This document shows, piece by piece, positions 22,131 through 59,345 of a stretch of 64,000 bases of DNA (position 1 is its first letter; every line of letters begins with the position of its first letter). The DNA is taken from positions 55,080,395 through 55,144,394 of the forward strand of contig NC_088912.1 in NCBI RefSeq assembly GCF_963576675.1, written 5' to 3'. Origin of the DNA: Euphorbia lathyris (lineage: Eukaryota > Streptophyta > Magnoliopsida > Malpighiales > Euphorbiaceae). A program made the translations under genes and the position numbers. The notes below the pieces were generated by a model. That model saw only the letters and a list, made by a program, of their open reading frames with translations. It was not told where the DNA came from and ran no database searches.

Positions 22131-23732
22131 ATGGCGGCGCTGGCAGTCCCCCAACCTAGATCCTCTAAAACGGAGTCCTACGTTGACAACAAACGGAAGG
22201 AGGACATACGCCACGCCAACATCGTCGCTGCCCGTGCAGTGGCCGACGCTGTTCGTACCAGCCTTGGCCCAAAAGGTATGGACAAGATGATTTCAACGGC
22301 TAGTGGCGAGGTTATCATCACTAATGATGGCGCTACCATTCTTAATAAAATGGAGGTTCTTCAGCCCGCCGCAAAGATGCTCGTCGAACTCTCCAAGTCT
22401 CAGGACGCCGCCGCAGGTGACGGTACTACCACCGTCGTGGTCATTGCTGGGGCGCTTTTGAAACAATGTCTTTCCCTCCTGTCCAGTGGAATCCACCCTA
22501 CGGTAATCTCTGATTCTCTTCATAAGACATCTATTAAGGCTGTCGATGTGTTAACTGCCATGGCTGTACCTGTTGAGCTATCGGACCGTGAATCCCTAAT
22601 TAAATCTGCGAGTACTTCGTTGAACAGCAAAGTGGTAAGTCAGTATTCTACGTTGCTCGCTCCATTGGCTGTTGATGCGGTTCTCTCTGTAGTTGATCCT
22701 GCTAAGCCAGATTTAGTGGATCTTAGGGATATTAAAATAGTGAAGAAGCTAGGCGGAACTGTTGATGATACTGAGATGGTTAAAGGGTTGGTTTTTGATA
22801 AGAAAGTTAGTCATGCCGCAGGCGGTCCAACAAGAGTGGAGAATGCCAAGATTGCAGTGATTCAGTTCCAGATTTCACCTCCAAAGACTGATATAGAGCA
22901 GAGCATAGTGGTTTCTGATTACACTCAAATGGACAGGATTTTGAAGGAGGAAAGGAACTACATTTTGAGTATGATTAAGAAGATCAAAGCAACTGGGTGC
23001 AATGTATTGTTGATTCAGAAGAGCATCCTGAGAGATGCAGTGACTGACTTGTCCCTGCATTATTTGGCAAAAGCCAAGATTTTGGTGGTTAAGGATGTGG
23101 AGAGAGATGAGATTGAGTTCATTACCAAGACTTTGAATTGCTTGCCTATTTCAAATATTGAACATTTCAGAGAGGAGAAGCTGGGTCATGCTGATCTAGT
23201 GGAGGAGGTTTCTCTTGGAGATGGCAAGATTGTTAAGATAACTGGGATTAAGAATATGGGGAGGACTACTACTGTGCTTGTGCGTGGGTCGAATCAGTTG
23301 GTCCTTGATGAAGCGGATCGAAGCTTGCACGATGCGTTGTGTGTAGTTAGATGCTTAGTGAATAAAAGATTTTTGATTGCTGGAGGTGGGGCTCCAGAGA
23401 TTGAACTTTCAAGGCAGCTTGGGGCATGGGCAAAGGTGCTACATGGGATGGAAGCGTACTGTGTGAAGTCCTTTGCTGAAGCGCTAGAGGTGATACCGTA
23501 TACGTTGGCAGAGAATGCAGGTTTGAATCCGATTGGAATTGTGACTGAGCTGAGGAAGATGCATGGCGAAGGGGAAATCAACGCTGGCATCAATGTGAGG
23601 AAGGGACAGATTACAAATATCTTGGAGGAGAATGTGGTGCAGCCATTGCTTGTGAGTACAAGTGCAATAACACTTGCAACTGAGTGCGTGCGGATGATAT
23701 TGAAGATTGATGACATTGTCACTGTCAGGTAG
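22131..23732 (+). CDS. CCT4: T-complex protein 1 subunit delta (CCT4 chaperonin), intact single-exon gene
   Basis: 533 codons, uninterrupted, about the usual length of plant CCT delta. It is one of eight subunits of the cytosolic TRiC/CCT ring, which folds tubulin, actin and other proteins using ATP. Group II chaperonin motifs: [11 protein letters not shown] at 43-53, NDGATIL at 65-71, the catalytic GDGTTT with Asp97 at 96-101, and the C-terminal [10 protein letters not shown] nucleotide-contact segment. SESSION-independent features favour delta: the N-terminal [19 protein letters not shown] and SISTSLNSK-like [13 protein letters not shown] at about 166-178. The first ATG (22131) follows a leader with a telo-box and is in good context at +4 (G). 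No intron interrupts the CDS. It is the only intact host gene seen, isolated between retroelements. The family is certain; the delta assignment is by recognition. Confidence 0.96.
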
Positions 23733-35756: not shown

Positions 35757-37590
35757 TGAAGGAAAATAGGCTAACGTTTGGCAGCGGAAATATAAAAATT
35801 TTAATCTTTTTCCATTAAACCAAGATCCGTTAATCGTTATTTCATATAAAGAGGGATAGAAGGAAACACCTTTTGATGAACTATCTGCCGTTGCAAGCGA
35901 AGTGCCCTCAACTCTTACTCCGAGTTCACGAGCACAAAACAAAACATAAGATCAAATCAAGTTAGAACTCAACCGTATAAAAGCAATCAAGAATAGATTG
36001 CCTTTAATTAATCAACACAAGATCAAGGAATAAGAGAAAGAGATGAAAATCAATTGAACGGAAGGAAGCGGTGGATGATCTCGTCCTCAATAAGAGGTGT
36101 CGAAATTCTCTCTCCAGGAATACTAGGGCTGGCTGAAATTTGCTAATAGGAGGGGTATAAATAACCTCTTGTATCTAAACCCTAGTTAGATAAAATTAGG
36201 TTACTTAATAAGAGTTATATTCTGAATAATACTCTTGTTATTATTATCTATAACTATATCTAAATATAAAGATAATATTAACTTATTTTAATAGGATAAC
36301 AATTAGAAGTAATTTAATCATAATAAACCTTCTAATTGAATTATCCTATAATTAATTTAATCCACAATTATAATCTAATTAAAATTGTTAAAATCAAATT
36401 AATTATTTATGTATTTTATATACATAAAATCCCCCTATATACTGGGCCTTAGTGGACTCAGTTGGACTTCCATAAATTAATTAACATCTGTTTCTCTTTT
36501 GGGCTCCAAGTCTTATGTGTGACCCATTAGGTTCTTATTGCTTCTAGCCGTATACAACTATTAAATTAATTTTCTCAGAATTATATTTAATCTTTGTATA
36601 ACGGAATGAGTACACGAACTGTGATTGGCAGATCCGAAACATTCCCCCAGAGCTATAAGAAGACAGGTTGATTCCGTCGTTGACCTTTCCGTATTAGTTA
36701 CAGTATAATTCGATCATTCATCAACTACATCTTTGAACAGAATCTTATGACTACGGATAATGTCAAGTCACATATAGCGAGACGTTCGCTTTACTTGTAC
36801 AGGCCGAGTTAACTCCAATTAGATAGGTTAAGTGAAATCTGCATTTCAAGTCTTAAGCTATCACCTTGCAAGGATTTAGAGTTAAGTCTTCCACAAGCGA
36901 TCCTTGGACGTATCTCCCATTTATCAGGAGTGACAAATGCTCAATCCTATGTATAACTATCCTGCAATTACTTCCTGTGACACCTAACGTCTGCCGTTCA
37001 CACCCTAGAGTCATCTCTGTTATGGATCGTGTTACAACAGGATCAAAGCATCACATTCCATAATCCAAAATCACTAATTAACATTCCTTTGAGTCTTAGG
37101 ATTACTTATACCTATTAATACCAATGAGATGAACAGGTGACAAGGATAAATCTACCCATCCTGTTATCTCAAGTCGGGTCCCCAATCCTAATGAACCCCT
37201 TTCATTGGATCCATATAACTGTCCAGATATCTGCATATCTGAAGCTTGTGAGATCAGCTCTCTGTCTTGACAGAAGACATTATTACATGCAAGTCTCAAC
37301 AGTGATATGTCAATCCCTATTCAAAACATATTACTTGACTTGGGGTGGTTTTAAGTTTATTAGTTTATTATAATGTTTCGTCTCACTTCATGCTTGTATG
37401 AACACTTTATAATCACTTTAAATAAACTTAGGGATTTCCTTTTATTAGACTTATTTAGTTCTTTAAAAGAGGTTGCCTTTATATATAGTTATAAAACCAT
37501 ATCTTATTAAAACAAATGATATAAAGAACAATTCATTTATATTAGGTTTATATCATGGAACAATTGTCTATAGGACACTAAACCCCAACA
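35757..37590 (-). repeat. 5' LTR of Angela-like element (1834 bp)
   Basis: Matches the left LTR along its length except for the extra 363-bp unit. Followed by target duplication CTCCT at 37591-37595. Confidence 0.94.
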
Positions 37591-38760: not shown

Positions 38761-38790
38761 CTAGAAGATACCCTCGCTCCGCTTTGGGGT
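38761..38790 (-). other. Helitron 3' terminus (CTAG with upstream hairpin)
   Basis: Plus strand A|CTAGAAGATACCCTCGCTCC, then GCTTTGGGGT. The outer pairs ACCC/GGGT of the hairpin remain; inner pairs are decayed. Confidence 0.7.
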
Positions 38791-39183
38791 TTTAAGAATT
38801 TCTCGAGATTAAGAGTTTATAGTAATAACTAAACAATACAAAATATTAGGACTGAATAAATTACAAAGTGCGAGGATTATTAGTTAATAATAATACAATA
38901 CAAAAACATTAGGAACGAATAAACTACAAAGTGCAAATGTGCAATGATAGCATAGGTTAAGAGGGATAATAATGTTTGAGTTGTAAATATGACATTACAT
39001 AAATATGAGTAGTAATACTATCAGCATAGGAAAAGCAAATGATTGCAAGAAGTTTAAAGGAATGCCAAGATGTTATTTCGACGATGAAGAAGTGCTCCTG
39101 TATACAAACCAAAGTTGGAAAATATAGTTAATTTAGTAAGCTAAAATTTGCAATAACATTTTTTTACGATAAATGAACAATAC

Positions 39184-41222
39184 TTACTCAGTGCGATGTT
39201 TCTTAGTTGTTCTTTCTCCAGATTTGTTTTCCATCACTGGAGGGTGCACTTCGAAATCCAGAACTTGTTTAGCAGACGGGGTAACGATATGGCGACTAAT
39301 AGGTGACGTTAAATGAGTTGATTGCTTCGAAACAGTGCTTGGTATTTCTTTTTTGGGAGTGAGTAAGGTGTCTGTGAAAATATACACAACTTTAAATGTT
39401 ATGTTCGACGGATCATCAAATATGTTGCTTATTTGGACCTGAAAGACATGTTCAGTCCCATAAATCTTTGTCATAGCAGGAGGAATTTCATGTCTTTCCT
39501 TGAAACTATTGGACAATGAGTTAGCTGGTATCCCAATTAAATCTGCAGCCATGTGTCCAAAAACCACAAAACTTGCAGAACCTGTGGCATCTTCAACAAT
39601 CAATCGGACTCTATACCTGAAATTATGTAAATGGCTAGTGTGTTATAATCTTAAGCATAGACATAATAGTGAACAAAGGTATAACTGAAAAATAGTTAAG
39701 TATTGTACCATGGTTGGGGGAGCTCTTCAATGAATGCACAACTTTTGCACCAAAGCTTGTCTTCAAAATTTTGGATGCTACTTTTACATCGTGGACATGC
39801 GCGGTACCACCAACCTTCGCTCGAATCAACTTCTTTAATTTTAGCCTTGCATGTGAATTTTATCCCCTAAAAAATGGTTAAATAATTTCATTTGCAAGGC
39901 GCACAATATAGCATGTGTTGAAAGTCTTAAAATTCATGCCTTGTCTGTATGTATATCAACTTCCAGTAATTCTGAAATTGTCCGCCTGTTTGATTCCTTC
40001 TCAGCTTCAATGTTAACTATTTGGGAGGAGGCTGGAGTAGTCTTATGCAAGACAAGATATGGTTTCCTAAGACTGGAACATACGATAAATAGTAAGAAAA
40101 TGGTGAAAAAATGCTTAAGATAATGTAGTAGGCCCATAAAGTTATAATTTAATGGACTAACCTTGAAGTAAATGAACTTATTTCAGGAATGGTCGGGTTG
40201 ACCTAGACTTTAGTGGCAGCCGAACTATTTAGTGCAATGTTGTCTGCATGGCATTTATTTATTTTTTAATAATCATCAAGGTGTACCACATTTGCAAAAT
40301 GAATATAAAATACATACTATTAAAAGGTTTAGCTGTCATTGATAAAACTGCAATGGCAACTGGTTTATCATGAGCCAGAGATAGTATGTGATCTTCAGGG
40401 AATGTGGTCGCTGCTTGTTGCCATAAAGTAACTTGCATTTCGACGCCACTGTTATTAAAAATGAAATATTTATAGAGCGAGGGAAAAAGTAAAAACATTA
40501 AACTTTGTGATAAGTTTGAATGTAAAAGACATACCTCGAGTTCTGTAGAAACACATCTCGTTTATCCTTGATCTGATCAAGTGCACGAATCTTTTCGAGG
40601 TTCCCAATCTTTGTAACTAAGCCGTACACGTCTAACATAAGGTGATAAATTTAAAAATGTTAAGACCCAAAATTAACAACGTATGAGACCATATTTACCA
40701 AATTGGAGCAAGAGGCGCGACATGTTAATGTTTCAAACTCACCAATGACATAGTCAATCAACCCACTGCGTTCACTTACTTCATCAAAAGTAAGGAAGTT
40801 GAACGTGTCATATGGAATTTCGATAGCTACATCTTCATCTTTTTTAATATATGTATTGTAAGGAAACCGAAGACGAAAAGAGTGAGTTGAAACACGATAA
40901 GTAGCTTGTGCTGACGCTATTGTAAACCCAAATATATAATAGACAGAACCTTCAACTAACTGCTTCCTAAACTTATCAGAAATCTCATTTGGAATGGTTG
41001 CTTGAATTGTAGTGCCCTAAAAAAGGCAGAGCATTGTTAAACACATATAATTTATATTGCTAGAGTTAAGAACCTTACGTCTTTGTCAATTAGGAGCAAG
41101 TCAAAGTTGAATATTTGTCTAGCTTTCCTTGGATTGATGAAATCCCAGCTTCTTGCTACACGAACTTGGATACGGATGTTCTTACTGTCCCTACCGATGT
41201 CTTTCAATGGGGTAAACGCCAT
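39184..41222 (-). pseudogene. Helitron RPA1-like single-strand DNA-binding protein, seven exons, one premature stop
   Basis: Exons inferred from GT/AG sites: 41079-41222, 40743-41016, 40535-40631, 40318-40448, 40162-40243, 39940-40072 (GC donor), 39710-39864 and 39184-39616. Exon 1 starts MAFTPLKDIGRDSKNIRI, an OB-fold typical of plant Helitron RPA. The exon at 39710-39864 encodes WWYRACPRCK...LWCKSCAF, the four-Cys zinc ribbon of the RPA70 C-terminal domain, followed by VEDATGSASFVVFG of the last OB fold. A TAG at 40203-40205 interrupts the fifth exon where the context suggests Tyr. RPA would bind displaced single strands during rolling-circle transposition. It lies 228 bp downstream of the helicase stop, the usual Helitron neighbour. 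Confidence 0.75.
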
Positions 41223-41450
41223 TGCCTTTGCTGGAAATAGAAAACATAAAGTGAAGTACCAATTGAGGAAATGATTCAATTTGGAAGCACTTTATACAAT
41301 AAACAAATAATAACAATTTGATCAATATCATTGTTAATGTTTCGCTTAATAAAGAACACTAAAAAAACTACATATTCACTTAATAAAGGACAATGAAAAG
41401 GGCTACCATTTACTTGGTTAGTTAGTGTAAATGTACAATAAAGTTTATGA

Positions 41451-44400
41451 TTAAAACAAAGATCTAAATATTTCATTGTATACTACATTTTTTGTTAAAC
41501 ATGATACATTTACATTGTCAATGTCTAGAGTACGTCCAATAGTTTCATACGACGTATGATGAACAACCACTTTAACATTTTCACTATTGGTTACCCGAGA
41601 TAGAGCAACATATAATTGCCCATAAGTGAATACAGGTTCATTCAAAAACAAACCTATACATTTCAAAGTTTGCCCCTGACATTTATTAATTGTCATGCTA
41701 TAACAAAGTTTTACCGGGAATTGTCTGCGTTGTAAAACAAAAGGGAGTTTTCTCTCAGAGTGATTTAGTGTTATGCGCGGTATGTAAACTCTATTCCCAA
41801 CAAAAGATCCTATCAAGATACTTGCCTCTATAACTCGATCACCTAGTTGTACAATAAATAATCTAGTTCCATTACAAAGACCAATTGCTGGATTGAGATT
41901 CCGCATTAGCATTATCGGAGTGTTTATTTTTAAAGAAAGTTCATGATGTGGGAAACTGTGAGGGTTGATTGAATTTAAAAATTCAACATGATATAAAGTC
42001 TCAAGTTCTTCTAAATTGATTGTTGTTTTGCACAGTGAGTCACAACTATAAAACGTGCGTGTAGTACCTGGTACCAACTGTAGCATATAGTCATTTATTT
42101 GTTTTGAAGTTTCATTCCTCGGTGTTACTATTGCCCTTTCTTGTAAATAGATAGGTAATGTATATTTATTTTCAAAATCGTTGTATGTTTCTGAAACAAC
42201 ATTCGAGACTGGATCACCGACTAACTGGGAAATAATTTTTTTGGGCAAGGTAATCCAATTGATTTCTGTGTCTATTGCACTGTTTGGAAGGCATTTGACT
42301 TGTCCGTCCCCCAAAGCCAATAACCACTGGCCAAAGGACTCATAATGTTCATGTTCAAAAATATTGTTGGTTTCATTTAACCTCATGTTTGTTTCTAAAG
42401 TGAAAACATTAAAATGCTTCCATAAATATGAATATGTTATAGATGCGTCAAGTATGTCCTCTTTCGAGCCATTTGGTATAACAGGTAAAATTTGTCGGAA
42501 GTCCCCACCCAAAACAATAGGTTTCCCACCGAAAGGCAGATCATTTACTTGAGCACCGGGTTCTTGTAATATGTCACGTAATGACCTGTCTAAAGACTCA
42601 AAACAAAAGCGGTGGCACATCAGGGCCTCATCCCAAATGATAAGAGAACATTCTTTGATTAAATAAGCAAGATTTGTTCCCTTTTTAATATTGCACGTGG
42701 AGCAGGATGACAGTTTGAGGGGAATTTTAAAGCGTGAATGAGCAGTACGTCCACCGGGTAGGAGGAGGGCAGCGAATCTAGAAGATGCAACGACTAACAC
42801 TATTTTATCTTCTGATCGTAGGCGTGATATGATGGTCTCGTATACATAGGTCTTTCCTGTTCCCCCATGACCATAAATAAAAAACAATTTAGGTAGGTTA
42901 TGCAAAACAGTTTCAATTACAGCATCGTAAACATGCCTCTGTTTTCTATTCAGAGAACTAACCATGGACTAGTATTTTAAGTTCAATTGCAACACATCAT
43001 AAGCCAACTCTTCCCGAATTAAATGATTAGTAGACATTGTGTCATTTGATGTTGAAGGCATGGGTAAGTTGTAGTCTGCAAGTGAGAAACCGTTGCGGTT
43101 GAAAATTTTCTCAAGCTCTATTAGAACAAAGTTTTTGACATGGGCAGCAACATGAAACATTGGAGGGAGATTTAGTTTTTTGCGAATATCATGTTGAATG
43201 TCTTCTGAAAAACTTGGCAAAAAGGCTTCAAGCAGTTTGTTTGGCTCTGTAACATTGCAGAAAATTATAATAACAACAAAGGGATTGCGCAATTGTTGCG
43301 AGGAACCTGTTATAGTCGCCTCTTTAAGTGCATCATGCCACTCTTTGTCATTTCCTAATAAGCCGTATGAATTGCAAGTTGCTTGGAAAGTTCGATGGAC
43401 CACACCATTTATGGTTCTAATGTCTTCGAAGCTCCGAACTCCTTTAACGAAATTTAGCAACATGTGTAAGTAATATAGTTCTCCTGAGCTTGGGTGTACG
43501 TATGCAATTCTACCCAAAGACATGCCTTTCTTTCATTCTAACCATTCCTTATTTTTTTGATCCCAAACCCACTGTGTAGGAAATTGCACATAGGTCAAGG
43601 CATGGGCACGCACATTACGATTATTCGTAGTCATCCATTCGGTTAGCATTGTTTTATGTGCTTGAGAGGCATTAAGTATATTATTCAAACTATTGTTCTC
43701 ATGATAAAGGACTACATTTTGATGTGGCAAATGAATGGTTAACCTTTCAATCGAAGGTTCTCTATGATGAATAGGAAATTCAAATAAGCGCCAACATGCT
43801 TCGGATGGGGAGATGTAGTGACAATCTAAATAGTTTCGTATTTCATCTCTTATAGCGTTAGTCTCCTCATTTGTGTTTGCCGCATTACATTGTTGTTTTT
43901 CAATCACCGCACGTACTCGGTCAGTTCCTTTTGTGATGTATTTGAATAGATATTTAACCATAGTTGAATAACAGCATGCCTCTATGTTTAAATGGGCTTG
44001 GTATCTGACTATTAAATCTCGATTGTGGGGAACAACATATCTATTATCTAAGTGCAAACCATTTTTTTCAAAGTGCACATCGTTGTCTCGTCTCTTGTAC
44101 GTAATGAACCCATGATCGTCAATAGAAGTCTGGGGCACAAATTGCTTCGGAAAATATTTGGAACATCTGTTATTTTTCATGCAAGGACACTTAGGGTTGA
44201 GGACACCGCAAGGACCGTGAATCATGTACTTTGTAACCAATTTGAAACCGACTGGGTCTGCTTTTGGGCAGGGTATTTCCGCACTTATGAAGGAATCAAT
44301 TTCTTGTGGCGTTAATTTTGTATGCTCGCGATTAAGCCAAATCAGACAATGTATATGCGGGAGGCCTCTTTTTTAAAATTCAACGGTATACAGAATATCA

Positions 44401-46256
44401 TTTGTTTTCCCAAAAAAATGTTTATTCTTTAAGTCGTTGATAAGACTGTCAACTTTCATTTTAAAAACGCGAGAAATAATATCTGGTCTATTTTCAGTTT
44501 TTAGATTGGGTGTTAATTTTAGAGTCTCAGATATTTCAGCCCATAACGGGTTACACGTGAATGTTATGAAGAAATTGGGATTTCCATAAAAACGACAAAT
44601 GGTCATAGCATCCTGGTAATGTTCTAACATATAGCGAGGACCTTCAGTATATGTTGAGGGTAGAATTATTTTTTTACCAATTTCAGCACCATCATGGTCA
44701 CCTTGAAAAAAAAGCGTCTTTAAGTCCAAAATATATTTCAGAACGTAAAGTTGTTTGATTACGTCGTAGGAAATCTAGACGTGCTTGTTCAACGCAAGAG
44801 TACACATCAACTATGTACTGTTGAAATAAACGACCTGATTTGAAGAGTGTACTCTTTCCAACATTGCTAGTATATAATTGATAAGCATAATATTCATGCA
44901 TAGTCATAAAGTTTCTTTTTAATTTTTTTCCTGAAGGTGAATCAGAATACGGTATATTCTCCATGTATCCATCTTCTCCACGGGGAAACAAAAGTGGATA
45001 TTGTAAGGCCATCAAACTGGGATGCAGAATGTGTATTCTTTTTAAGTTATTGCTTTTTGTCTCAACAATTAGGTCTCTTGTTATATCATAATGTTCGAAG
45101 TCACCAACTACTAAACTTGCAATTTCACTCACTAACGGAAGTTCATATTGCTTTGTATCTGTCCCTCGTATTCCAAGCAAACACAGTTTTAAAGGTGTTA
45201 TTTCATTTTCACGATATCGGTCACGAACCATGCGAAATGCCTTCGCTAGAGCATTATGTTCGTCAAACATTTTTATTAGATTACCAACTATGTTTGCATC
45301 AATCACTGTTTCAGACGTTGGATTAGAAAAATGGGCAAGCCTGTGTTGTAATTCATGGGCACAATCGTAGACGTATAACTGAGCAAACTTAGGGGTTTCA
45401 TTTAGAGATGGGAGTAGAGAACCAATCAAATGGTGATTCTGGCCGCATACTCTAAAAACATATGGTCCATTTGTTTTATTAATGGCATTATCTACCTTAG
45501 CTCCAATTGAGGTAAACGAAAATGTGGAATTGTAGATACGTATGTTGTCCATAAATTTTGCATATTTTGAATTAGAGAAATTATTTAAAAGTGATTCAAG
45601 GTACGGGGGAGGGGGAAGTCGAGGGCTTAATTTAATTAAGCCTTTTTTGCAGCATCTGTTGAAATCTGGAACTGGGCGTGTTGCTGTGAATTTTATTGCT
45701 TCTTCCCTCCAAAAAGGAGCACCACAAAAAGGACATAGGCATGAAGCACTCCCCATATTTGATATCTCTATATCTGAATTGTAATAAAGATAGATATGTA
45801 TTAGTTTTTTTTAGGGTGTAAGGGCTAAGAAATAGGCAATCTTAATAACAGTATGGAGGACTAACATTTAATGTAATCTGTACTTGTGTATAGATGGTAG
45901 ATGGAAGGATCAATTTCGATCGGGACAGATATTGGCTGGTGTTGAAAAGCATATGCTGAAGATGTCGCTACATCGAGTATTGGGGAAGAATTCATTAAGC
46001 ATGTATTTGTAGTTGTACGATAAAAATCTCTCTCTGTTAAACAAATCCTTTTGGATGGGCTAGCTTTGAAACGTGTGTTGTTTAAGGATCGTTTGTTGTT
46101 GTAATCCTCTGCCAAATTATAACGATTTAATCTAAAAAGTACTAAAAAAATATAGAGTTCAAACTCACGATGAGGTGAAAAAATACCAAAGTTGATTTGG
46201 ATAGGAACATCGCTTAAAGTTCCATCTTCGAGTGAGGAATTGGAGATTGACGACAT
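41451..46256 (-). pseudogene. Helitron Rep/helicase, broken by one frameshift and three nonsense changes
   Basis: N-terminal exon(s) 46256-45861 with a likely intron up to 45770. Then a Cys-rich finger (CLCPFCGAPFW, 45740), Rep HUH motif GLPHIHCLIWL (about 44365-44330), a Cys-rich NPKCPCMKNNRCSKYF, and Tyr motif MVKYLFKYITKG (about 43960). The PIF1-type helicase follows from 42965: Walker A GHGGTGKT, Walker B LIIWDEA, and a C-terminal YVALSRVTNSENV. Breaks: a slip in a T8 run at about 44702-44709; TAA at 44373-44375 (likely Gln), TGA at 43533-43535 (likely Arg) and TAG near 42968-42980 (likely Gln). All three nonsense codons fit C-to-T. Rep nicks and joins DNA and the helicase unwinds it in rolling-circle transposition. 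Confidence 0.85.
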
Positions 46257-46427
46257 TTGCGGGCACTAAAAGCGATATTTGTTAAGAAAGATATAAAAGC
46301 CAAAAAAATATATTTTTATATATAAATTGCATATGAAAAAGACATACTATATAAAAGGCGGTTAAGCTTTAGATTAAGTAGTTAACCAAAATAATAAGCT
46401 AAACATAAAAACATTCTAGTAGGTGGT

Positions 46428-46886
46428 TTAAAATAAAGCATTTATCCTATCCACTATGAGACGAATACGCGACATAAGATGCAAAGCTTCAATAATTTTT
46501 TCCATGAGTGAAGAGCAGGCTGTTAGGATTTCTCCATATGGGATTAAAATGCTTGACTGGTAAGCATGAAATTGTTGTTGATATTCAACCCGTGCTTTTT
46601 CCGCTTCATTGTAATTTAAATCAACAATAACTATACCATGTAGTCGTTGTAAGGACCTCAGAGCTGCACAACATGCCTCTTTTTTTGCATCCTTTAGGTC
46701 GACATCACTAATTCCGCAGATATTTAATGGGTGTTCATGATGTCTTTCATCTCGATACGTGTAATAGACGCGGCAAGTATAAAGTCCAGGTTGATTCATT
46801 TCATATTCAATCCTTGGCTCAGAAGAACCTAATTGGGAAAGGGTGTAACGAAGGACAACTTCGTACGAAATAACGATGGTTGGCAT
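46428..46886 (-). CDS. dsRNA-binding-motif-like protein A (152 aa), intact
   Basis: Unrecognised gene with a family signature. Residues 1-20 form a helix (MPTIVISYEVVLRYTLSQLG). Then PRIEYEM (24-30), YTCRVYYTY (36-44) and LNICG (54-58) read as three beta strands, and KDAKKEACCAALRSLQ (65-80) as a second helix. That is the order and spacing of a double-stranded-RNA-binding motif, including the conserved P..Y, G, KxAKxxAA and AL positions. HGIVIVDLNYNE follows, then an amphipathic C-terminal helix (112-151). It starts 172 bp upstream of the Helitron Rep start on the same strand, so it may be Helitron cargo or a Helitron-encoded accessory gene. RNA binding is inferred from pattern only. Confidence 0.7.
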   Translation of the reverse strand: MPTIVISYEVVLRYTLSQLGSSEPRIEYEMNQPGLYTCRVYYTYRDERHHEHPLNICGISDVDLKDAKKEACCAALRSLQRLHGIVIVDLNYNEAEKARVEYQQQFHAYQSSILIPYGEILTACSSLMEKIIEALHLMSRIRLIVDRINALF

Positions 46887-47070
46887 CTATAAAAAGAATG
46901 GACACCCATTACAATTGATTATTAAAAAAATTCTATAAAATTGTAAGCAATGTTGATTATCTTAACAAACTATTCAAGTTTAAGATATAAATAGTATAAT
47001 ATTGGTTGTTTTAAGTTTTTAATTAGTGTCACAATATTTTCCCCAAAACAAACATGACCTTATATTGTAA

Positions 47071-47455
47071 AAAAAAATATTTTGTTTATAAACTAAAACA
47101 TTTTCAAGGATATTATTGTATAAAGTCAAGCTTTTCTTGAAAATTTAATTTTGTCAACTATTTACTTATACTATATTACAATATACATGATTGAAATTCA
47201 TTTGATAGATGATTGGAGTAAAGGTGATTTGTGTCTGCTTTGTTTCAGGAACCAAATGTCTTGCATCTTTTATATTGTTAAAAAAATTATTTATTTATAA
47301 AAATTACAGCATTTTCAATGGCTTTGTATAAATCTAAACTTTTCTCCAAAATTTAATTTTATCAACTACTTACCTATATTATATCACAATATACATGATT
47401 GAAATTCATTTGATCGATGCTTGGAGTAAATGTGATTTGTCTACTTTGTTTCAAA
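47071..47455. repeat. Two-unit direct repeat, about 186-205 bp offset
   Basis: Units about 47071-47250 and 47276-47455 share TTTATAAA...ACATTTTCAA and the block ACAATATACATGATTGAAATTCATTTGAT, with scattered differences. Non-coding. Confidence 0.75.
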
Positions 47456-47513
47456 AATCAAATCACAGTTTTCTTATCTTCAGTTATCAATGATGAATAT
47501 GAAATCTTTTATT

Positions 47514-48331
47514 GATAAGGTACCAAAATAGGTCTAAGGTTTTTGAGAAAGTACCAATTTAGGCTCAATGTTCAAAATAGCACCAATATAGGCTTAACGT
47601 TTACAACATAGCATCAATTTAGGCCTCACATACAAAATAGCACCAATATAGTTTTAACGTTTACAAAATAATACGAATTTAAGCTTAACGTTTTACAAAA
47701 TATATACAATTTAAGCTAAACGTCATCATTAAATTAATCATATTATATTCTTTCCCTATTAATGTTATATGTTATCTTTTTATTTAGTTCTATATTCTTA
47801 TTTATTATAATACAATTAATTAGTTTTCTTGCCCATTAAAACATTATATTTGTTTTTCATCAACCATTCCATGACTCCTAAATTCTATGACTTATGTAAT
47901 ATATTCAAACTAAAAGTAATTGAACATCCACAATATTTTGAACACTAATCATTTATGAAAAACGAATATAAGGTTTTAATGGGCAAGAAAACTAATTAAT
48001 TTTATTATAATAAATAAGAAAGTAGAACTAAATAAAAAGATAACATATAAAGTTAATAGGAAAAGAATATAATATGGTTAATTTAATTGTGACGTTTAGC
48101 TTAAATTTGATATATTTTGTAAACGTTAAGCTTAAATTCGTATTATTTTATAAACGTTAAGCGTATATTGGTGCTATTTTGTACGTGATGCCTAAATTGA
48201 TGTTATATTGTAAACGTTAAGCCTAAATTGATATTATGCTGTAAACGTTAAGCCTATATTGGTGCTATTTTGAACGTTGAGCCTAAATTGGTACTTTCCC
48301 AAAAACCTTACACCTATTTTGGTACCTTATC
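47514..48331. mobile_element. Fold-back inverted-repeat element, 818 bp
   Basis: Ends GATAAGGTACCAAAATAG and CTATTTTGGTACCTTATC. Left arm about 47514-47866 and right arm about 47953-48331 are inverted copies of each other. Each arm is built of short repeats of the type ACCAATATAGGCTTAACGTTTACAA. A spacer of about 85 bp separates them. No ORF. No clear target duplication could be fixed. A shorter relative lies at 57976-58293. Confidence 0.85.
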
Positions 48332-49610
48332 CCTTTATTTTATTCATAGATTTTTAATGGTTAAATAGTCAATTGATTATGAGAAATTGCTTTAACAACA
48401 GAAAAAAAAGAGTATGAGAAGAAAAAATAATAATTACAAAAGAAGATTAATGTTCATAGTTTATTTTTGTAAAAAAAACTTGAGAACTAAAAAAAATATT
48501 TATAGGAAAAAGATGAAATTCGGAAAAAAAATAGTAATATTTTTAAAAAAAATATTAGTGTATTTTTTACATTATAAAATTGTGTATATTTTAATTTCTG
48601 CATGTTTAGTTTTAATTTTTTTTTGTTAATATAGAACCAAAACCATGTATAAAATTAAATGTTTTACTTTTAGTAGATATCTTTTCTTCAAAACTTTAGT
48701 GTAACATATTTAACCTTTGAGTATTTATTTTTTTATTTTATTAAATATTTGCTTATCAAATAAGTTAAAATTACTTTTGAAGTATATAATATAAATTTAG
48801 AATATAGATAAAATTAATAATGATTCATTAACCAAATATTATGTTAAAAGATATGTTGACTTAAAAGATAAAGATTTATTTAAGACAAAAACATTAAAAA
48901 AAACCAAACACAGAAACAATAAACGTTAAATCAATTTTCTATAGAATATTATTTTTTCTATAAATTGTAAAATCAGTTAATTATGAATTAAATCATTCGA
49001 GTAGTGGTAAAGTTCTCTTCACTGGACTTCAAGAGATTTTTTTTTATTTTACTTGCTTATTTGGATTTTTGTGAAAGATTAAAAATATGTTCCATCTAAC
49101 TTAGGTTTGAATTACTTACTTTACCAAAAAAATATATATTTGGTTGATTTTTTCTAACGTACCATTAAATCTTAAATGAATATATAATGGAGGAGCTTTC
49201 ATAGTTAACTATTATAAAAAATTAATATTTAATTAATATGGAGAGATGCCAATGTTGTAGGCAATTTAGAAGGAATATCTGTGTTATGTATATATATATA
49301 TATATAAATTTAAACAATGATTTTAATCAAACTTGATAGGGGAAAGGAATGGCTAAGAAATTGATAAATTATAATTAATTTGTCCAATAAAATGGTGAAG
49401 CTTTTTAGCGGTGAAAGATTTATATAAAAATGGATTCTATAAAAATACTAAAAAGCGAGCAAATGGAAGTTGTTTTGATGTTTAGTGGATTTATCTAATC
49501 ACATCTATGTTATATGCAAATAATTTAGTGAACACAAAACATAATTATTCACTATTTTCCTAAAAGCTTAGTACAGTAGTGGACGGAGGTTAGTAGAAAA
49601 CAATTACAAA
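48332..49610. other. AT-rich DNA between fold-back element and ORF B
   Basis: No supported gene; very A/T-rich with a TA run at about 49287-49306. A 71-codon Lys/Phe-rich ORF at 48414-48629 looks like a product of base composition. Confidence 0.55.
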
Positions 49611-50072
49611 CTAAATAATATTATTTATTCTACTAACTATTTTCTCTATGCGAGACATTAGACGAACAATAAAGTCAATTTTTTTCTTGAGAGATGTACA
49701 GGCGGATAACAAAGTCACATGAGGATCTAGGACAGATGTTTTGTACTCACGCAGTTGTTCACGATATGTTAAACGAAGGGTTTCCAGTTTGTTATGATTG
49801 AAGTCAATTATTTCAATACCATATAATTGTTGGAGAGATTTCAGAATAGCGTAGCATGCTTTTTTTTTTTTGCTTCATTTGAGCTTTCAGAATTCGAGCA
49901 AAAAAAAATCAAAAATATGTTCATCGTTTTTCTTATCTCGATAGACATAGAAAACACGACAACAGTAATGATTTGGATGATTATGTTCAGTTTCAATCCT
50001 TGGCGGAGGTAGTTCAAGTTGTATAAGAGTGAAGCGTAATAAAGCCTCAAAGGAAATAACGATTGATGGCAT
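49611..50072 (-). pseudogene. dsRNA-binding-motif-like protein B, two homopolymer frameshifts
   Basis: Closest relative of ORF A. It starts MPSIVISFEALLRFTLIQL, then LPPPRIETEHNH and YCCRVFYVYRDKKNDEH. The frame is lost in a run of nine A/T at about 49899-49908 and again in a 12-base T run at 49860-49871 (A run on the coding strand). Beyond it, conserved residues resume: ACYAILKSLQQLYGIEIIDF, a helix, and the end LMSRIEKIVSRINNII before TAG 49611-49613, matching A's LMSRIRLIVDRINALF. Both breaks are in homopolymers, so sequencing or assembly error, slippage or true decay are all possible. Confidence 0.7.
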
Positions 50073-50599
50073 CTCGTTTGTAAAACTACATTAAAACAAA
50101 ATTAGTTAGTTAATTTATATAGAAATATGCAAAGGTGACAAAACAAGTCTTCAGTTTTATATGGACGAAATATTCTTTATATAGAATAGCAAAAAATAAA
50201 ATTTAAATTCAATATTTAATTGTCTGATGATCATTAGAATTTAAGCATTTTTTGTGTGTGTTTTAGGTGCAGGAGCATTTGAAGAAGGTAGTAGAGGATG
50301 ATTATAGTCTTAGGAATATAAAACTCAGGGAATGCAACTTCTTAATTTTATATACATTTGTTTCCTATATAATAAAGGTTGTGATAAAATACTAATGCAT
50401 AAGACATGAGTTTTAGTGATTGTCTTGTGTATAAGTCAAAATTAAAGTCTCTAAAAAAAGAGATTCAGTCAAATATGTAGTAAAATAAATCAAATGCGCA
50501 GTTGCAACTGTGTACTAAATTAATCAACATTCTTATTCCATAAAAAAAAGACATAATACATGCGACAATAGATTTTTTTAAAATTGACGGGATACAAAG

Positions 50600-51051
50600 C
50601 TATAGATCAGTAGAAAACTCATCCAAATCAAAACCACCAAATAGTGAACTTATAGAATGGAGGACTTGTAAAACGCGTTCATATATATGTTTTAACATCG
50701 TGTATTTACGATCAAGCACGGCTATTGACTCAGCCCCTGTCACTTGGGCCAAGGCGAGCATTTTTTTCTTTTCTTCAATTTCTATGATTTCTTCAGAGCT
50801 GAAGTCATTAAATTTATATCGTATAAAGGCATCAAATATTCAAATGCACGCTGAACAGCCGAGTTTCTAGCATCGTCAGAAACCGGCGAGCTACATCCGT
50901 AAATATCTACGGATGCATTATCAGAATGGTCATTTTTTGAAGAAGGAATCGTAATGCAACAGCAATAGTAACCGGTATCGATTTCACGATTCATTTTCTC
51001 TTTATAAGGAGGCAATTCCATGTGGGAAAAAAAATTCCCGGAGCAAAGCAT
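50600..51051 (-). pseudogene. dsRNA-binding-motif-like protein C, diverged, one frameshift
   Basis: ATG 51049-51051. Residues MELPPYKEKMNREIDTGYY, then CCCITIPSS, VDIYGCSSP and SDDARNSAVQRAFEYLMPLYDI align in order with strands 1-3 and helix 2 of A and B. One base appears missing near 50806 (a TT where TTT would keep frame). The other frame continues FNDFSSEEIIEIEEKKKML and a C-terminal helix to TAG at 50600-50602. Same strand and order as A and B, which suggests an old tandem array. Similarity to A is weaker than B's, so membership is inferred from architecture. Confidence 0.55.
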
Positions 51052-51551
51052 GGAGAGGTATCTTTATAAGAACCATCTGTAAATGTTATTTAGAAAGTGT
51101 AGTTACCTAGTTAGGAAGGATTCAAATTTAATAAGGTAGAAGAAACAATTTATATTTTTTCATTTAATGTTTTATGAAAATTGTATTATGTTACTAAAAG
51201 CAAGATTTAACCAAAAGTGTACCTTACAATCGTGATCCCGGTGGAATAGAAGCTGAAAACACACGATGAAGTAAATTAGCCAAAATACAAATTTAAATGC
51301 ATATAAAAAATTATACTACATAAGTACAAATCTAGTAGAGAATTAATAGAAACTTACAATTGGACATGAGACAAATTACAACACACAATCACTTTGATTG
51401 AATAGATGTAGAAATGGTGAAAAAGGTGGTAAAAGGTTTATGTTTGGTGTTTTCACTCTTAATTGAATATAGAAAACAAAACATAGAAAAGAAGTGTGTT
51501 TATGTAAGATTTGGTGATAATGGCATATATTTATAGGAAAAAAAATTGTAA

Positions 51552-51790
51552 CACAAAGTGTATATAAAAAGAACTTTGAAGTGGAAATGTGGTTTTAGTT
51601 TTAATTAAGTTATGGAAAAGTGGGAAAAGTGGTTTATGTTTTAATTAAGAAATGTGTATGCACAAACAATTTAAAGTGGAAAAGTGGTTTTAGTTTTAAT
51701 TAAGTGGAAAAGTGGTTTAGAAAACAAATTTATGAAATGTCTATGCACAAAGAATTAGAAGTGGAAAAGTGGTTTTAGTTTGAAATATGA
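51552..51790. repeat. Irregular direct repeats GTGGAAAAGTGGTTTTAGTTTTAATTAAG
   Basis: Four to five imperfect copies of a unit with core AAGTGGAAAAGTGGTTTTAG over about 240 bp, some with TATGCACAAA spacers. Non-coding. Confidence 0.75.
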
Positions 51791-52099
51791 AAGTGAAAAA
51801 ATGGAGAAAATGGTGTCTAAAACTAATTGATTTCATTTTTAATGGAATGACTAAGGTATTAGAAAGTGAGAAAGTTGTTTTAATTGGAATTATGTTTAAG
51901 TGTTATAGTGTATGCATGAGGTAAAAATGGAATATGTTTAAGTGTTATATTGTATGGGTGGGGTATGAAAAGTATTTAGTAAACTAATAATGTTGAATAT
52001 CATTACCAAAATGTCACATTTTATATATAAGGAGTACTAATTTTTATAACTAATAGTATTGAATAGGAATAAAATGGATTATAACTAAATTGCATATAT

Positions 52100-54258
52100 T
52101 AATAGGAGCTTTACAAAATGGTAAAAATATTTTGAGTTTCTATGTAATTTAAAGAAAGTAATACAAAGTTTACATTTTTTATATTTTATTTAATTTCTTA
52201 CTTGATATAATGTATAATAGGAGAAATAAATTTAAGAATTTGATTTTTTGGATAGACTACAAAAAGAATGGAAAAGTAATTTCAATTGAGATTACAATGG
52301 TTTGAGTTTTGTTATATAGAAACAAAGATAAAGAAAAAAACATGATATTTGGTTTACAAATATATTTTTCTTTACTGGATAGATAAAGGGTTAAAGCATC
52401 TCCAAGAGACTCTTAGTGAGCTCTCTAAAAATAATATAAATAATTGACTCTTAGTGATTTAAGAGTGGTTAAGATATATCATCTCCAACAATGCTCCTTA
52501 TATTCACTTCTTATTTATTATTTTATTATTAAGATTATTCTTTATTGTTACTTTACCAATAGTGTGAGGAGAGAGACACAACAATAATAAATTATTGATA
52601 AAAAAATGAAGCAAATTCATAAAATAAAATTAAATTTTCTAATAAGATAAAGTGAGCATAATTAAATGTTATATTGTAGGCTTAAATCACTATGTGACAC
52701 TCAAACTATCTAAAAGAAAATTGATTTGGCTCATAATCTATTATTTGGTCATATTTTGCCAGTATTATGTTTTTTTTGTGAAATTTCACACAATTTGGCT
52801 GGGGACTTAATAAAATTGTTAGCATGTAAAAGATAAATTTTCATTTTGCTCATGATCTATTACTTAGTCACATTTGGCCCGTAACCAATTTTAACTGGTG
52901 AAATTCCGCATGATTCAGATAAGAACTTAATAAAATTGTTATCATACAAACATGTGATGATATTTTGACACTTAAAATCCATAAATTTTAATTTAGAGAT
53001 TTGTTTTCTATTTTTTTTTCTTTTTTAATCTACTTAGATATGGATAAGAGGTAAAAAAAATAGTAAAGGTTGTTTGAATTTAAAATAAAACTAAAATGTA
53101 CAGCCAAAGAGCTAAAAATGACAAAAGTGGAATAAGTTGTTATTCATAATAAATGTAAATTGAAAATTTTGATTATTAGATATAATATAAATTATTTTTA
53201 ATTTATGTATCACTTTTAGTACACCTAAATGTAAAAGTAATTTAAAAATTATTAGTAAATGGTTAATGTATATATAAGAAGTTGAACAGAGTATAACTTT
53301 ATACTACGATCTAAATAAATATAGTGTTTTAAAAAAACTTGTAATGAATTAATAGAAAAGACTAATTTTAGTTTATGTTTGTTAAAATACAAAGATTAAT
53401 TATAGTTTAAGTAAAAATAAAAGATTAATAAATTATTCATCCAAAATCGCAGGTGACTTTAAGCACAAAATCATAGTTTAATTGAATTATGTTATGATAT
53501 AAAATTCATTTGTTAGAAGAAAAAAAATATTTTATTTTTTCATTTGAAATATCAATTTAATAAAAAAAATTGATTTGTAAATGTGAATTTGATTAAAATA
53601 AAATTGAATTAGAATCTATTGAAAAGCTTAAAAGATGAAAGGATTTAAAATGTTGGTTGTCTAAACAATCAGTATGTATTTTTAGATATATTTTTAGTAT
53701 GTATTTTTAGATATATTTTTTGATAGAATTTAATTGGTATATAAAACTGTTAGTTGTCTAAATAATCAGTATGTATTTTTGGATAGAATTCAATTGGTGT
53801 TTTTCATTGTCTTTGACCTGTAGCAGTTTTATTCTTAATTTATATGGTGCCTCCTAACAAAATATCTAATTTTAAACAATACGTGTTAATATACATCTTG
53901 ATTTATTGTTACATAAACAAACAATAATAGGTTAGTAGTGGATCATTTTAATCACTCCATATTTCTTGCATTTCTATCACTTTATCTGCTAACATTAAAA
54001 TAAAAACACCAAAATCAACAAACTTTTAATAGATTAATCCAACAATTACACAATATGTCTCCCCAATTATGGACTCTACTGAAGCCACATAATCAAACAT
54101 ATTCTATTCAAAGAATAGACCATGCTGAACTTGTAGAAAGTAAAAGAACTATAACAATAGTTGGACAGGAATATGGTGAACATGTGCACAAACCCAAAAC
54201 AAATATCAGAAGCACAAAATTAGAATAAAAAGCAGCAGTTGTCTACTCCATGCCAAAG
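52100..54258. other. AT-rich intergenic DNA right of the Helitron
   Basis: No supported gene. It contains a two-unit repeat (52723-52955) and a stretch at 52395-52500 (GCATCTCCAAGAGACTCTTAG) resembling MITE-type sequence, without identifiable matching ends. Confidence 0.5.
52723..52955. repeat. Diverged two-unit tandem repeat of about 120 bp
   Basis: Units share GCTCATAATCTATTA(T/C)TT(G)GTCA, GTGAAATTTC/CGCA and ACTTAATAAAATTGTTA at corresponding places. Confidence 0.6.
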
Positions 54259-56754
54259 TCACTGGTCACCTACACATAGCAATGGGCGCTTTCGCTTACG
54301 CGGTTTCCTACGGAGGAAAGAAACATGTATTAGCTTAACAAAACCAGGAAAAATGAAAAAGAACAATTACAAATTAATAGACAACGTACCAACGCAGTAA
54401 TAGATCCTCTGTAGATAGGCGTTTGTAAGCATTGCTAAAGGTATTCGAAATCCTAACCAATTTAGTCTTGCTACATTGGATTTTAAGTAATTTATGCTTC
54501 AGACATGAAATCTGTGACTTCAGTTTTACTGTTTCTCCACTATCAGTAAGCATATTTCCCTTTTTCGACTTCACATGTCCCTTACTCGTGGAAGAGCATG
54601 CGCCCAAAGGAGGCACATGTTAAAACACCTTTCCAACATGATTTTGATTTGACAAAATTATTTAAGTTAATCCATGATTAAGACAATTAAATTTAAGTGC
54701 TTTGATTTAATTGTACTAATGCGTTTGTTCAATGTTAAGTATAAAAATATTTATAAGAACAGGAATCAAATTAAGACAGAACGTAGTCAGCATGATAACA
54801 TAGCACGGGCTGAGTAAAGAATGACTCAGTACAAAAGAAGGAAAGTCTTCTTTAGGACCAAAGCTTACAGAACGAAGCTGACCGCAGAAGCTGAGTGAAA
54901 AGCAACTCAGCATAAAAGAAGAAAAGTCTTCTTTGGAACTATATCTTGCAGAACGAAGCTGACCGTGGAAGCTGAGTGAAAGGCAACTCAGTATCGGAAT
55001 TGGCAACAATCAAAGACAACGGCTATCAAAGTCACGTTGAATGATTTTAAGACAGCACCAATGATCCGTTTGCTAAAAGACAAGATCCGACAACTGTCTG
55101 CACTAATAATAGAAACCTTGGAATTACGCAAAGGTTTAATTTCGAGATGCATGGGTCAAATGTCCGCTGACTAAATGACGAAACCTGCACTACAAGACAA
55201 ACCTGCGAGAAGAAGACAAGCCTGGCGCCTGCCGAATTCAGACGACAGGATTGGCCTACAAATCTGAAGCTGACCAGAACATGTCGCAAGAAAAAGCCGT
55301 TTGAATCCAATGGAAAATTCCGGATTCAAATCATTGTATCTTCAGATTACAATTATAAAAGGACAAGTACACTTCTTGGATCCTTAGCCGAAATACAAGT
55401 GAAAAAGAGCATACATACAAAGCACATCAAAACAAGAAAAAGATCTTACACCAAATTTCTATCTCTGTGGAAAAGCTAGTTTGATTTTGTAATCATCTAA
55501 AGTCTTCTTTGTCTGAAAAAGAACAAGTTTGTATCAATTGTAAAATTGAGAGAGTGGTGCTGAGTACTCGGTTTTAAGTACTCAGCGGTAGAGAAATCTA
55601 GGTGTTTGGTTATAGCACTTAGTAGGAGTTGAGTAGACGAATAGAGAAAGGTACTCTTGTATATTCAACTGTTTTGTAAACGGGTTGTGCTCTACCTTTA
55701 AAGAGCTCAGTATTGGATTGAAAAAGCCCGGAGGGATTCTAAGGACTGGACGTAGACGGAGAGGCCGAACCAAGATAAGTCGTGCTGAGTAATTTCTAAC
55801 TCTCTCTCAATATATATTTGTATGTGTTACTTGCTATATTTACTCAGTATATAAATTGTTTAAACTGACACTGAGTAAATCAGAGTGCTGAGTTGGAAGC
55901 TGACCACAAAAGTGTCATTTCCCAACTCGCAAGTAAAACAGTTCTAGTCAGTATCTGACTAAAGCCGTCTTACGCCTCACTCGGCCGTGCTGACCAAAAC
56001 TGAGTTGTGAAACTTAAAGAATTATATTAAGTCAACATAATTAAAATGAAAAAGTTATATTAGTTCCTAACCCCCCCTTGGAACTAATCACACGGGACCA
56101 ACAGCACATCTATCAACTTGAGATTTCCCTTAGTTGTAGAAGATCCTGCACCCGAGAGAGGTGTATCTGCATGACCTTCTAAAAGGAGTAAAGGATCCAA
56201 ATCACTTTCAATGGACTTTGCTGCTTGAGATTGGATGGCCCACCAAGCATGTACATCTCGAAAAGGGCAACTGTTTGGGCCATTTGAACCATATGTGGAT
56301 CATCTTCTAAGGGGTTAAAGCCAGAGGTAGGGGCAACTTCAGGTTCAGGAATTGGATCAAAACAAAACATATCTTGGACATCAAAAGGTTCCTCAGGAGG
56401 TTCTGGATCAGCCAGTTGTAATGTGGGTAGAGCATTAGCTTGCCAAGATTTATACTGGCATAACTCATGGTAGTTCACATCTACAACCGTCAAATTATTA
56501 ACAACAATAAGATGACGGATCAGATCCAATGCAGCTAAGTGTTTTGCTGTTGCAGCGTTAGTTGAACTCATAGCAGTGAATCTTCGTACAACGTCATTAC
56601 CATTTGAGTCCAATGTAGTCAATGTCAATGTGAGTGTGCAGATAAACTCATTTGCTACAGGATCAGAAGTTTCAGTGCAGCGTGGAAGCGGCAAGCCAAG
56701 CGGGAACAGAAACACTGGAAGCAAGTCAGCAAAAGGTAGGGTAATAGTAAACAT
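54259..56754 (-). pseudogene. dsRNA-binding-motif-like gene D, split by a solo LTR; nuclear-signal-like last exon
   Basis: Exon 56754-56109 begins MFTITLPFADLLPVFLF. It aligns with A: LPLPRCTETS, strand ICTLTLTLTTL, helix AATAKHLAALDLIRHL and LTVVDVNYHELCQY (A has IVIVDLNYNE). A one-base loss near 56226 shifts frame; the other frame then runs through a Ser/Thr linker to the solo LTR (54618-56103). The frame resumes cleanly at 54617 with a Lys/Ser-rich segment and a helix (LKSQISCLKHKLLKIQ). It meets a GT donor after 54390; an AG acceptor at 54308 opens a last exon 54307-54259 encoding KPRKRKRPLLCVGDQ and TGA, in the right phase. TCTTGCAG before 56754 may be a 5' UTR acceptor. KPRKRKR resembles a nuclear localisation signal. 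Role inferred only from fold pattern. Confidence 0.65.
54618..56103 (+). mobile_element. Solo Sirevirus LTR (1486 bp) inserted in gene D
   Basis: Starts TGTTAAAACACC and ends CGGGACCAACA, the same LTR family as 16807-18241 in opposite orientation. Target duplication GCACA at 54613-54617 and 56104-56108. No internal retrotransposon sequence, so it arose by LTR-LTR recombination after a full insertion. Confidence 0.93.
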
Positions 56755-58499: not shown

Positions 58500-59345
58500 A
58501 AAAGGACAAAACAAATCGATGCGATGTACAGGTTTTTGACCATTTTTCCTTCAATGAAGAATGAAAAAATATATGATGCTCACTGTCCAGTTTATACTAA
58601 ACATAAATAAAATGTATGTCAGAACATGTAAAAAGGACACCAGATTAATGATACTGATTTTTTTCCTCAGAAATTACAAAATGAAAGTCTAAAGAATTCA
58701 AAACAAATTTATGAAGGTAAGAGAAGCCAAGATACCTTTACATGGGTACTTGGGAAGGCAGAGGTACGGAGAGTTTCCCGAGTTTCATCAACCATTTTAC
58801 ATTTTGGTATGCTTAATATGAAGGCTGCTTGATCAGCAGTGGCAGCCATAGATATTACCATCGCAGATATAGTTAAAATCACTGATTTATAAACCATAGA
58901 GGTACGGAGAGTTTCCTGAGTTTCGCTCAATTAGTAGACTGTTCTCCCGTAACATATCGATGCGATGTACATGTTTTTTGACCACTTTTCCTGCAATGAA
59001 GAATGAAAAAAATATATGATGATCACTGTCCAGTTTATACTAAAAATAAATAAAATGCATGTCAGAACATGTAAAAAGGACACCAGATTAATGATACTAA
59101 TTTTTTCTTCAGAAATTACAAAATGAAAGTCTAAAGAATTCAAAACAAATTTATGAAGGTGAGAGAAGCCAAGATACCTTTACATGGGTACTTGGGAAGG
59201 CAGAGGTACAGAGAGTTTCCTGAGTTTCATCAACCATTTTACGTTTTGCTATGCTTAATATGAAGGCTGCTTGATCAGCAGTGGCAGCCGTAGATGTTAC
59301 CATCACAGATACAGTTAAAATCAATGATTTACAAACCATAACACT
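58500..59345. repeat. Tandem duplication of about 450 bp including an exon-like segment
   Basis: 58515-58900 and 58963-59340 share CGATGCGATGTACA, CACTGTCCAGTTTATACTAAA, TTTATGAAGGT(A/G)AGAGAAGCC and the coding-like block that follows. Differences are scattered, so the duplication is not recent. Confidence 0.8.

Follow-up and report, generated by a model that had tools for sequence, protein, structure and literature searches.

Four related minus-strand genes stand beside a Helitron in Euphorbia lathyris, which raises the question of whether they belong to the transposon and what their proteins could do for it. The locus is a stretch of 64,000 nucleotides (C3:55080395-55144394 of the 1.02 Gb assembly), called the window in the following. 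The original prediction, made from the letters alone, had described four genes, A to D, that share the strand and helix order of the double-stranded RNA-binding motif (dsRBM), had placed them beside and probably inside the Helitron, and had proposed that they bind double-stranded RNA (dsRNA) and may dampen small-RNA silencing of the element. The part of this reading that concerns accessory genes with a dsRBM fold is very probably right. The best explanation as a whole, accessory genes that dampen silencing, has about even chances, and interference with silencing, taken by itself, is put forward tentatively and by analogy. On the minus strand the order is D, C, B, A, RepHel (46256-41451, including a leader open reading frame (ORF)), RPA and the Helitron 3' end:

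54259..56754, minus strand: gene D, predicted dsRBM-fold domain and a further exon, broken
50600..51076, minus strand: gene C, C-type paralog by colinearity with locus L012, with at least two frame shifts
49611..50072, minus strand: gene B, B-type paralog, broken by two indels
46428..46886, minus strand: gene A, intact 152-aa protein with a predicted dsRBM fold and a C-terminal helical region, on the B-type side of the tree
45861..46256, minus strand: N-terminal leader ORF of RepHel, which also adjoins Rep in L009, L010, L014 and L016
41451..45756, minus strand: RepHel (Helitron_like_N, PIF1 helicase) with one frameshift and three internal stops
39187..41231, minus strand: RPA-like gene of several exons, whose 139-aa ORF alone is below the Pfam cut-off
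38761..38798, minus strand: Helitron 3' end, a short inverted repeat followed by CTAG; homology with the C6 copy of the element stops at 38761

Gene A is an uninterrupted ORF of 152 codons and lies, as had been claimed, directly upstream of Rep in the same direction, with 171 bp between its end and the first Rep ORF, which begins with an ATG at 46256. The bounds first given for A held; the start of C was corrected from 51051 to 51076, its end being 50600. The frame of B is open from 50072 to 49614 apart from two TGA codons, both in a brief segment that is out of frame and flanked by homopolymer runs; its two indels, both next to such runs, compensate each other, and the B homolog in the C5 copy of the element is open. 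Since homopolymer runs are located at the breaks of B (49850-49930) and at the first break of C (50985-51060), both mutation and assembly error are possible there. The first coding exon of D spans 56754-56182 and the last one ends at 54259, with an insert of ~1.5 kb between them that resembles a long terminal repeat (LTR); D carries a frame change besides the insert, and in the C6 copy it has the letters of the annotated E. lathyris protein P0006.

A and B are 48% identical (BLASTP E 9e-48), and judged by their sequences the homology of the two is beyond doubt. Their comparison over 138 codons, from which the shifted stretch of B was excluded, gave a nonsynonymous rate (dN) of 0.43 and a synonymous rate (dS) of ~2 by NG86, which is saturated, and a ratio of ~0.2 (~0.3 by LWL85). 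BLASTP also connected A with D (E 9e-5) and B with C (E 5e-7), found no match for A-C and C-D and a chance match only for B-D, a pair to which phmmer assigned 1e-6. None of 2000 shuffles reached the alignment score of A-B, A-D, B-C or B-D; 7 did so for A-C and 21 for C-D. Because A-C and C-D are weak on their own, C is connected to A and D through B and through the genome copies, and both C and D are tied to the family mainly via B and by profile. With these connections, four by shuffles and that of C also through B and the copies, the claim of four related minus-strand genes beside a Helitron was borne out.

A search of the genome with A gave 40 matches; merging left 31 loci, with A and B of the window counted as one. 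Recurrence near Helitron Rep genes had been set beforehand as a test, and the family was not one that is never near Helitrons: in 22 of the 31 loci a Rep match lies no more than 12 kb away, on the same strand in 22/22, downstream in 19 and upstream in 3. One of the 22 (C3 at 60.68 Mb) has only a short Rep fragment, 11.85 kb off. The chance per site is 0.19% if the 76 Rep loci are evenly placed; the Rep list is a lower bound, with 115 of 175 candidates scored. Around each of 20 A loci 9.9 kb were fetched, and Rep or RPA was present in the same stretch in 17, in A's orientation in 17/17. L011 and L012 are pieces of the C5 copy, a colinear counterpart of the window with its Rep part ~100 kb away in L010; L017 has a Rep match 10.9 kb downstream, L022 a partial Rep, and L023, L024 and L027, without Rep within 12 kb, contain RPA and a Helitron 3' end. 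With all evidence pooled, 27 of 31 A loci fit Helitrons, and no Helitron gene was found at the other four, namely two on C1 and one on C7, which lie outside the fetched stretches, and one on C8, of which 4 kb contained no Rep. Counted from the Rep side, the 42 Rep loci of 54% identity or more include 22 with an A match within 12 kb, and the 34 below 54% include none, where distant homologs could be missed; the 54% split and the 12 kb radius were fixed after the lists had been seen. The 34 loci represent a second Helitron Rep group in the genome, a natural control set.

The element itself was recognised by matches to Helitron_like_N (1.2e-34) and PIF1 (1e-87) on adjoining pieces of a broken protein, colinear with plant RepHel. 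A 3' hairpin and CTRR end at which copies stop was found at 38761, with the C6 copy, and in four other elements; the window's hairpin is short and weak, and its end at 38761 reads ...AAAGCGGAGCGAGGGTATCTTCTAG. The scan for 3' ends demanded a T after CTRR and, therefore, T flanks prove nothing; the 3' flank of the C6 copy, which was found via alignment, is G. Neither the pattern scan nor the comparison of copies revealed a clean or shared 5' TC end in an AT target. In the elements at L021, L023, L024 and L026 (C1, C2, C5) an A-like gene follows RPA shortly before a 3' end like that of the window, with 148-179 bp from its stop codon to the end in the three copies that are open, L024 being broken; homology between the four elements stops at CTAG within 1 to 22 bases, and the flanks are unlike.

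The C6 copy matches the window at 38761-40286, 40276-46600, 52957-54618 and from 56104 to ~60839, with its 3' limit at exactly 38761. The C2 copy is colinear with 42770 to 51084, with gaps and an insert, and the C5 copy, cut by insertions, with 43054 to 52033; both take in the sequence of A, B and C, which therefore occur together with RepHel in independent copies. D is common to the window and C6 only, among the copies seen. Its position within a copy that stops exactly at the Helitron 3' end supports D as part of the mobile unit, but homology with C6 beyond D fades at ~60839, where no recognisable Helitron 5' end was found, and D may have been captured or may be a neighbour of the element. 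The placement inside the Helitron thus stands for A, B and C, by colinear copies and shared 3' ends, and is less certain for D.

The A-like genes often come in pairs. In 11 of the 20 fetched loci (L009, L012, L013, L014, L015, L017, L018, L020, L022, L027 and L028) a profile search detected another gene upstream of the B-type one, and in L021 and L026 a C-type gene precedes Rep and a B-type gene follows RPA, so that 13 of 20 carry two dsRBM-like genes, one of each type. Among the remaining seven, three copies (L010, L011 and L016) are cut or deleted, L019 and L025 have the B-type gene alone, and the stretches fetched for L023 and L024 exclude the DNA upstream of Rep. A tree of 22 sequences, which left out the broken B and C of the window and included six C-type rows, split into C-type (support 0.97), D (0.99) and B-type genes, the latter including A and the copies at the 3' end (0.97); L009, L017, L018, L022, L027 and L028 were labelled C-type by DNA colinearity with the C-type rows of the tree.

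The ratio dN/dS was tabulated for pairs of at least 80 codons with dS above 0.03 and below 1.5, again excluding the broken window genes. For L014 against the seven-copy L013 group, seven B-type pairs gave 0.24-0.34 and two C-type pairs 0.20-0.21; between clades the ratio was 0.67-0.85, near saturation. Both gene types are constrained between subfamilies, with dN/dS well below 1. The same-strand association with Rep, the position inside the 3' end, the pairing of two genes and dN/dS make the A-type family look like selected Helitron accessory genes rather than host neighbours.

What fold do the proteins have? The domain of D was modelled as alpha-beta-beta-beta-alpha (helices 8-16 and 67-85, strands 25-31, 36-48 and 54-65) with a predicted local distance difference test (pLDDT) score of 76.8. 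Its neighbours by VIA-align are double-stranded RNA-binding domains (dsRBDs), 6 of 50 rows not being dsRBDs by title. The Foldseek ranking gave no PDB match with E <0.001 and listed unrelated lipoproteins and single-stranded DNA-binding proteins among the dsRBDs, which VIA-align told apart; a search of viral structures gave no clear named relative. The best PDB profile matches were TRBP (E 0.005) and Loquacious (E 0.09) as whole chains, with the third dsRBD as the best stretch, whose E-values taken alone are without significance. The dsRBD region of plant DRB7.2 (8z49; DRB4 complex 8igd) and the dsRBDs of DCL3 and DCL4 are 12-24% identical and were not in the sequence matches. A alone matched no family in Pfam, PHROGs and PDB and nothing in the protein database, where a four-row profile recovered two E. 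lathyris proteins among 954 candidates and a six-row profile of 315 columns had no match; 13 pattern matches in IMG/VR included no relative. Matches to Dodecin, ThiC-associated and Imm51 were sub-threshold and were rejected. A dsRBM-like fold is therefore matched by the family profile and by the predicted model of one member, D, in line with the strand and helix order first proposed.

Several findings weigh against this picture of selected, dsRBM-fold accessory genes that act on silencing. A modelled alone gave a poor model (pLDDT 44.5), and the confident one is that of D, the member with the least sure place in the Helitron. No Pfam model reaches its cut-off for these proteins: the best dsrm match, that of the L014 C-type protein, has 12.9 bits at a cut-off of 23, and Dicer_dimer has 12.9 bits for D at a cut-off of 23.7. 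By hhalign, the B-type rows alone (25%) and the C-type rows alone (8%) are weak. The C-type pair L012C-E26 has a dN/dS of 0.43 at a dS of 1.5, and the values among recent copies (dS <0.17) range widely, between 0.11 and 0.96, which is expected after insertion. No A match lies within 12 kb of 20 of the 42 close Rep loci, and no A-type domain was found within 21 RepHel proteins of other plants (best E 0.41 and 0.59 with the first and the later profile), a search in which separate upstream genes would be missed. KKxAK at the start of helix 2 is the motif of RNA-binding type A dsRBDs; in the family alignment, which has 22 rows, several of them near-identical, the first position is basic in 0/20 and the second in 1/20 rows.

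The third position is basic in 21/21 rows with a letter, and A retains two of the three positions. With a single lysine retained in most rows and Dicer-docking dsRBDs as the best sequence matches, direct dsRNA binding by these proteins is doubtful, and on this point the original prediction is not supported in the form in which it was put. Type-B dsRBDs of Dicer partners act via protein contacts. By its predicted fold the family resembles the type-B domain (dsRBD3) of TRBP and Loquacious, and its RNA-contact lysines, counted here in E. lathyris, are eroded, as they are in TRBP; TRBP and Loquacious are host proteins with several dsRBDs, unlike a single short domain with a helical tail on a transposon. 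We propose that an E. lathyris Helitron lineage carries accessory genes beyond RepHel and RPA, often two paralogs (B-type, like A and B, and C-type, like C), which either stand in tandem ahead of RepHel or are separated, the B-type gene then lying between RPA and the 3' end. Their proteins would behave as type-B dsRBDs do: with a degenerate dsRBM and a helical region at the C-terminus, they could dimerise and dock on Dicer-like (DCL) or DRB proteins of the host, or weakly on dsRNA, and less small RNA would be made from Helitron transcripts. Such a conserved two-gene module, a transposon counterpart of viral silencing suppressors that would act on small-RNA production in plants, is in this specific form rather unlikely, though worth stating.

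The main rival, which we consider about as improbable as that specific form, is a role in transposition, in which the dsRBM-fold proteins would assist RepHel or RPA as partners, by binding to the hairpin at the terminus or to a DNA intermediate, or by dimerising with RepHel. The genes are same-strand neighbours of RepHel or RPA, and RPA itself, a nucleic-acid-binding accessory protein of plant Helitrons (PMC6431247), provides a precedent; however, the best sequence and fold neighbours include dsRBDs of RNA silencing, and no A match lies near the 34 more distant Rep loci, with the limit given above. Direct binding of dsRNA, which would shield Helitron transcripts from Dicer, is unlikely: the fold, the basic third KKxAK position and the two positions retained in A fit it, but the first two lysines are gone from nearly all rows, and a GPxH-like loop was not seen by eye in the 22-sequence alignment. 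It is very improbable that the genes are captured pieces of host genes without function; such capture is frequent in Helitrons according to the accessible part of PMC6431247, D is homologous to an annotated protein and shares a long 5' region, and many copies are broken, yet both gene types occur together in 13 of 20 loci and dN/dS is low between L014 and the L013 group. A host gene family with Helitrons nearby by chance can be dismissed for A, B and C, which are colinear with RepHel in other copies, lie inside the shared 3' ends of four elements and keep the strand of Rep in 22/22 loci, and only D, shared with C6 where the 5' side has no Helitron end, and the four A loci without a Helitron gene would fit it.

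To our knowledge, the nearest plant transposon anti-silencing genes are VANC, of a different kind. VANC proteins of Arabidopsis VANDAL transposons are, in the accessible text of PMC5735166 and PMC10398659, likewise transposon-encoded and have the anti-silencing role proposed here, but are described as sequence-specific and as proteins of VANDALs. PMC12825306 reports for Arabidopsis that the transposon RNAs bound by DCL1 are enriched in those of Helitrons and that DCL1 promotes 24-nt small interfering RNAs, mostly from Helitron transcripts; a Helitron protein docked on DCL or DRB could lower these. Plant Helitrons as described in the accessible part of PMC6431247 share RepHel, RPA and the CTRR 3' end with the window's element, and a dsRBM-fold accessory gene is not mentioned there. 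A literature search on Helitrons with dsRNA-binding, dsRBD or accessory genes, outside which most subscription papers lay, found no such gene, in agreement with the claim that none has been described. For elements known for RepHel, RPA and captured gene fragments, a pair of dsRBM-fold genes under selection would constitute a new accessory module. By analogy, the Helitron-borne genes suggest interference with plant silencing of Helitrons, and they make it testable whether plant DNA transposons, like viruses, encode proteins that act on Dicer-dependent small-RNA production.

Sequences that resemble splice acceptors by eye are located just before A (46886) and the first Rep ORF (46256-46263), so A and the Rep ORF may be alternative exons of one transcript. 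Two further features interrupt the gene row:

54618..56103, no strand: LTR-like insert in D, absent from the C6 copy
47514..48331, no strand: foldback element in the A-B interval, missing in the C2 and C5 copies

The LTR-like insert has relatives in L010, L011, L013, L025, L030, L031 and L033, and the inverted arms of the foldback element are long. Upstream of D, a 442-bp tandem duplication lies at 58510-59340, with more matches to it in the C6 stretch (L029). Beyond the Helitron 3' end, 36002-37590 is a repeat present again in L010 and L014, and a TCP-1 chaperonin ORF of 533 codons without interruption (22131-23732) is surrounded by retrotransposon ORFs.
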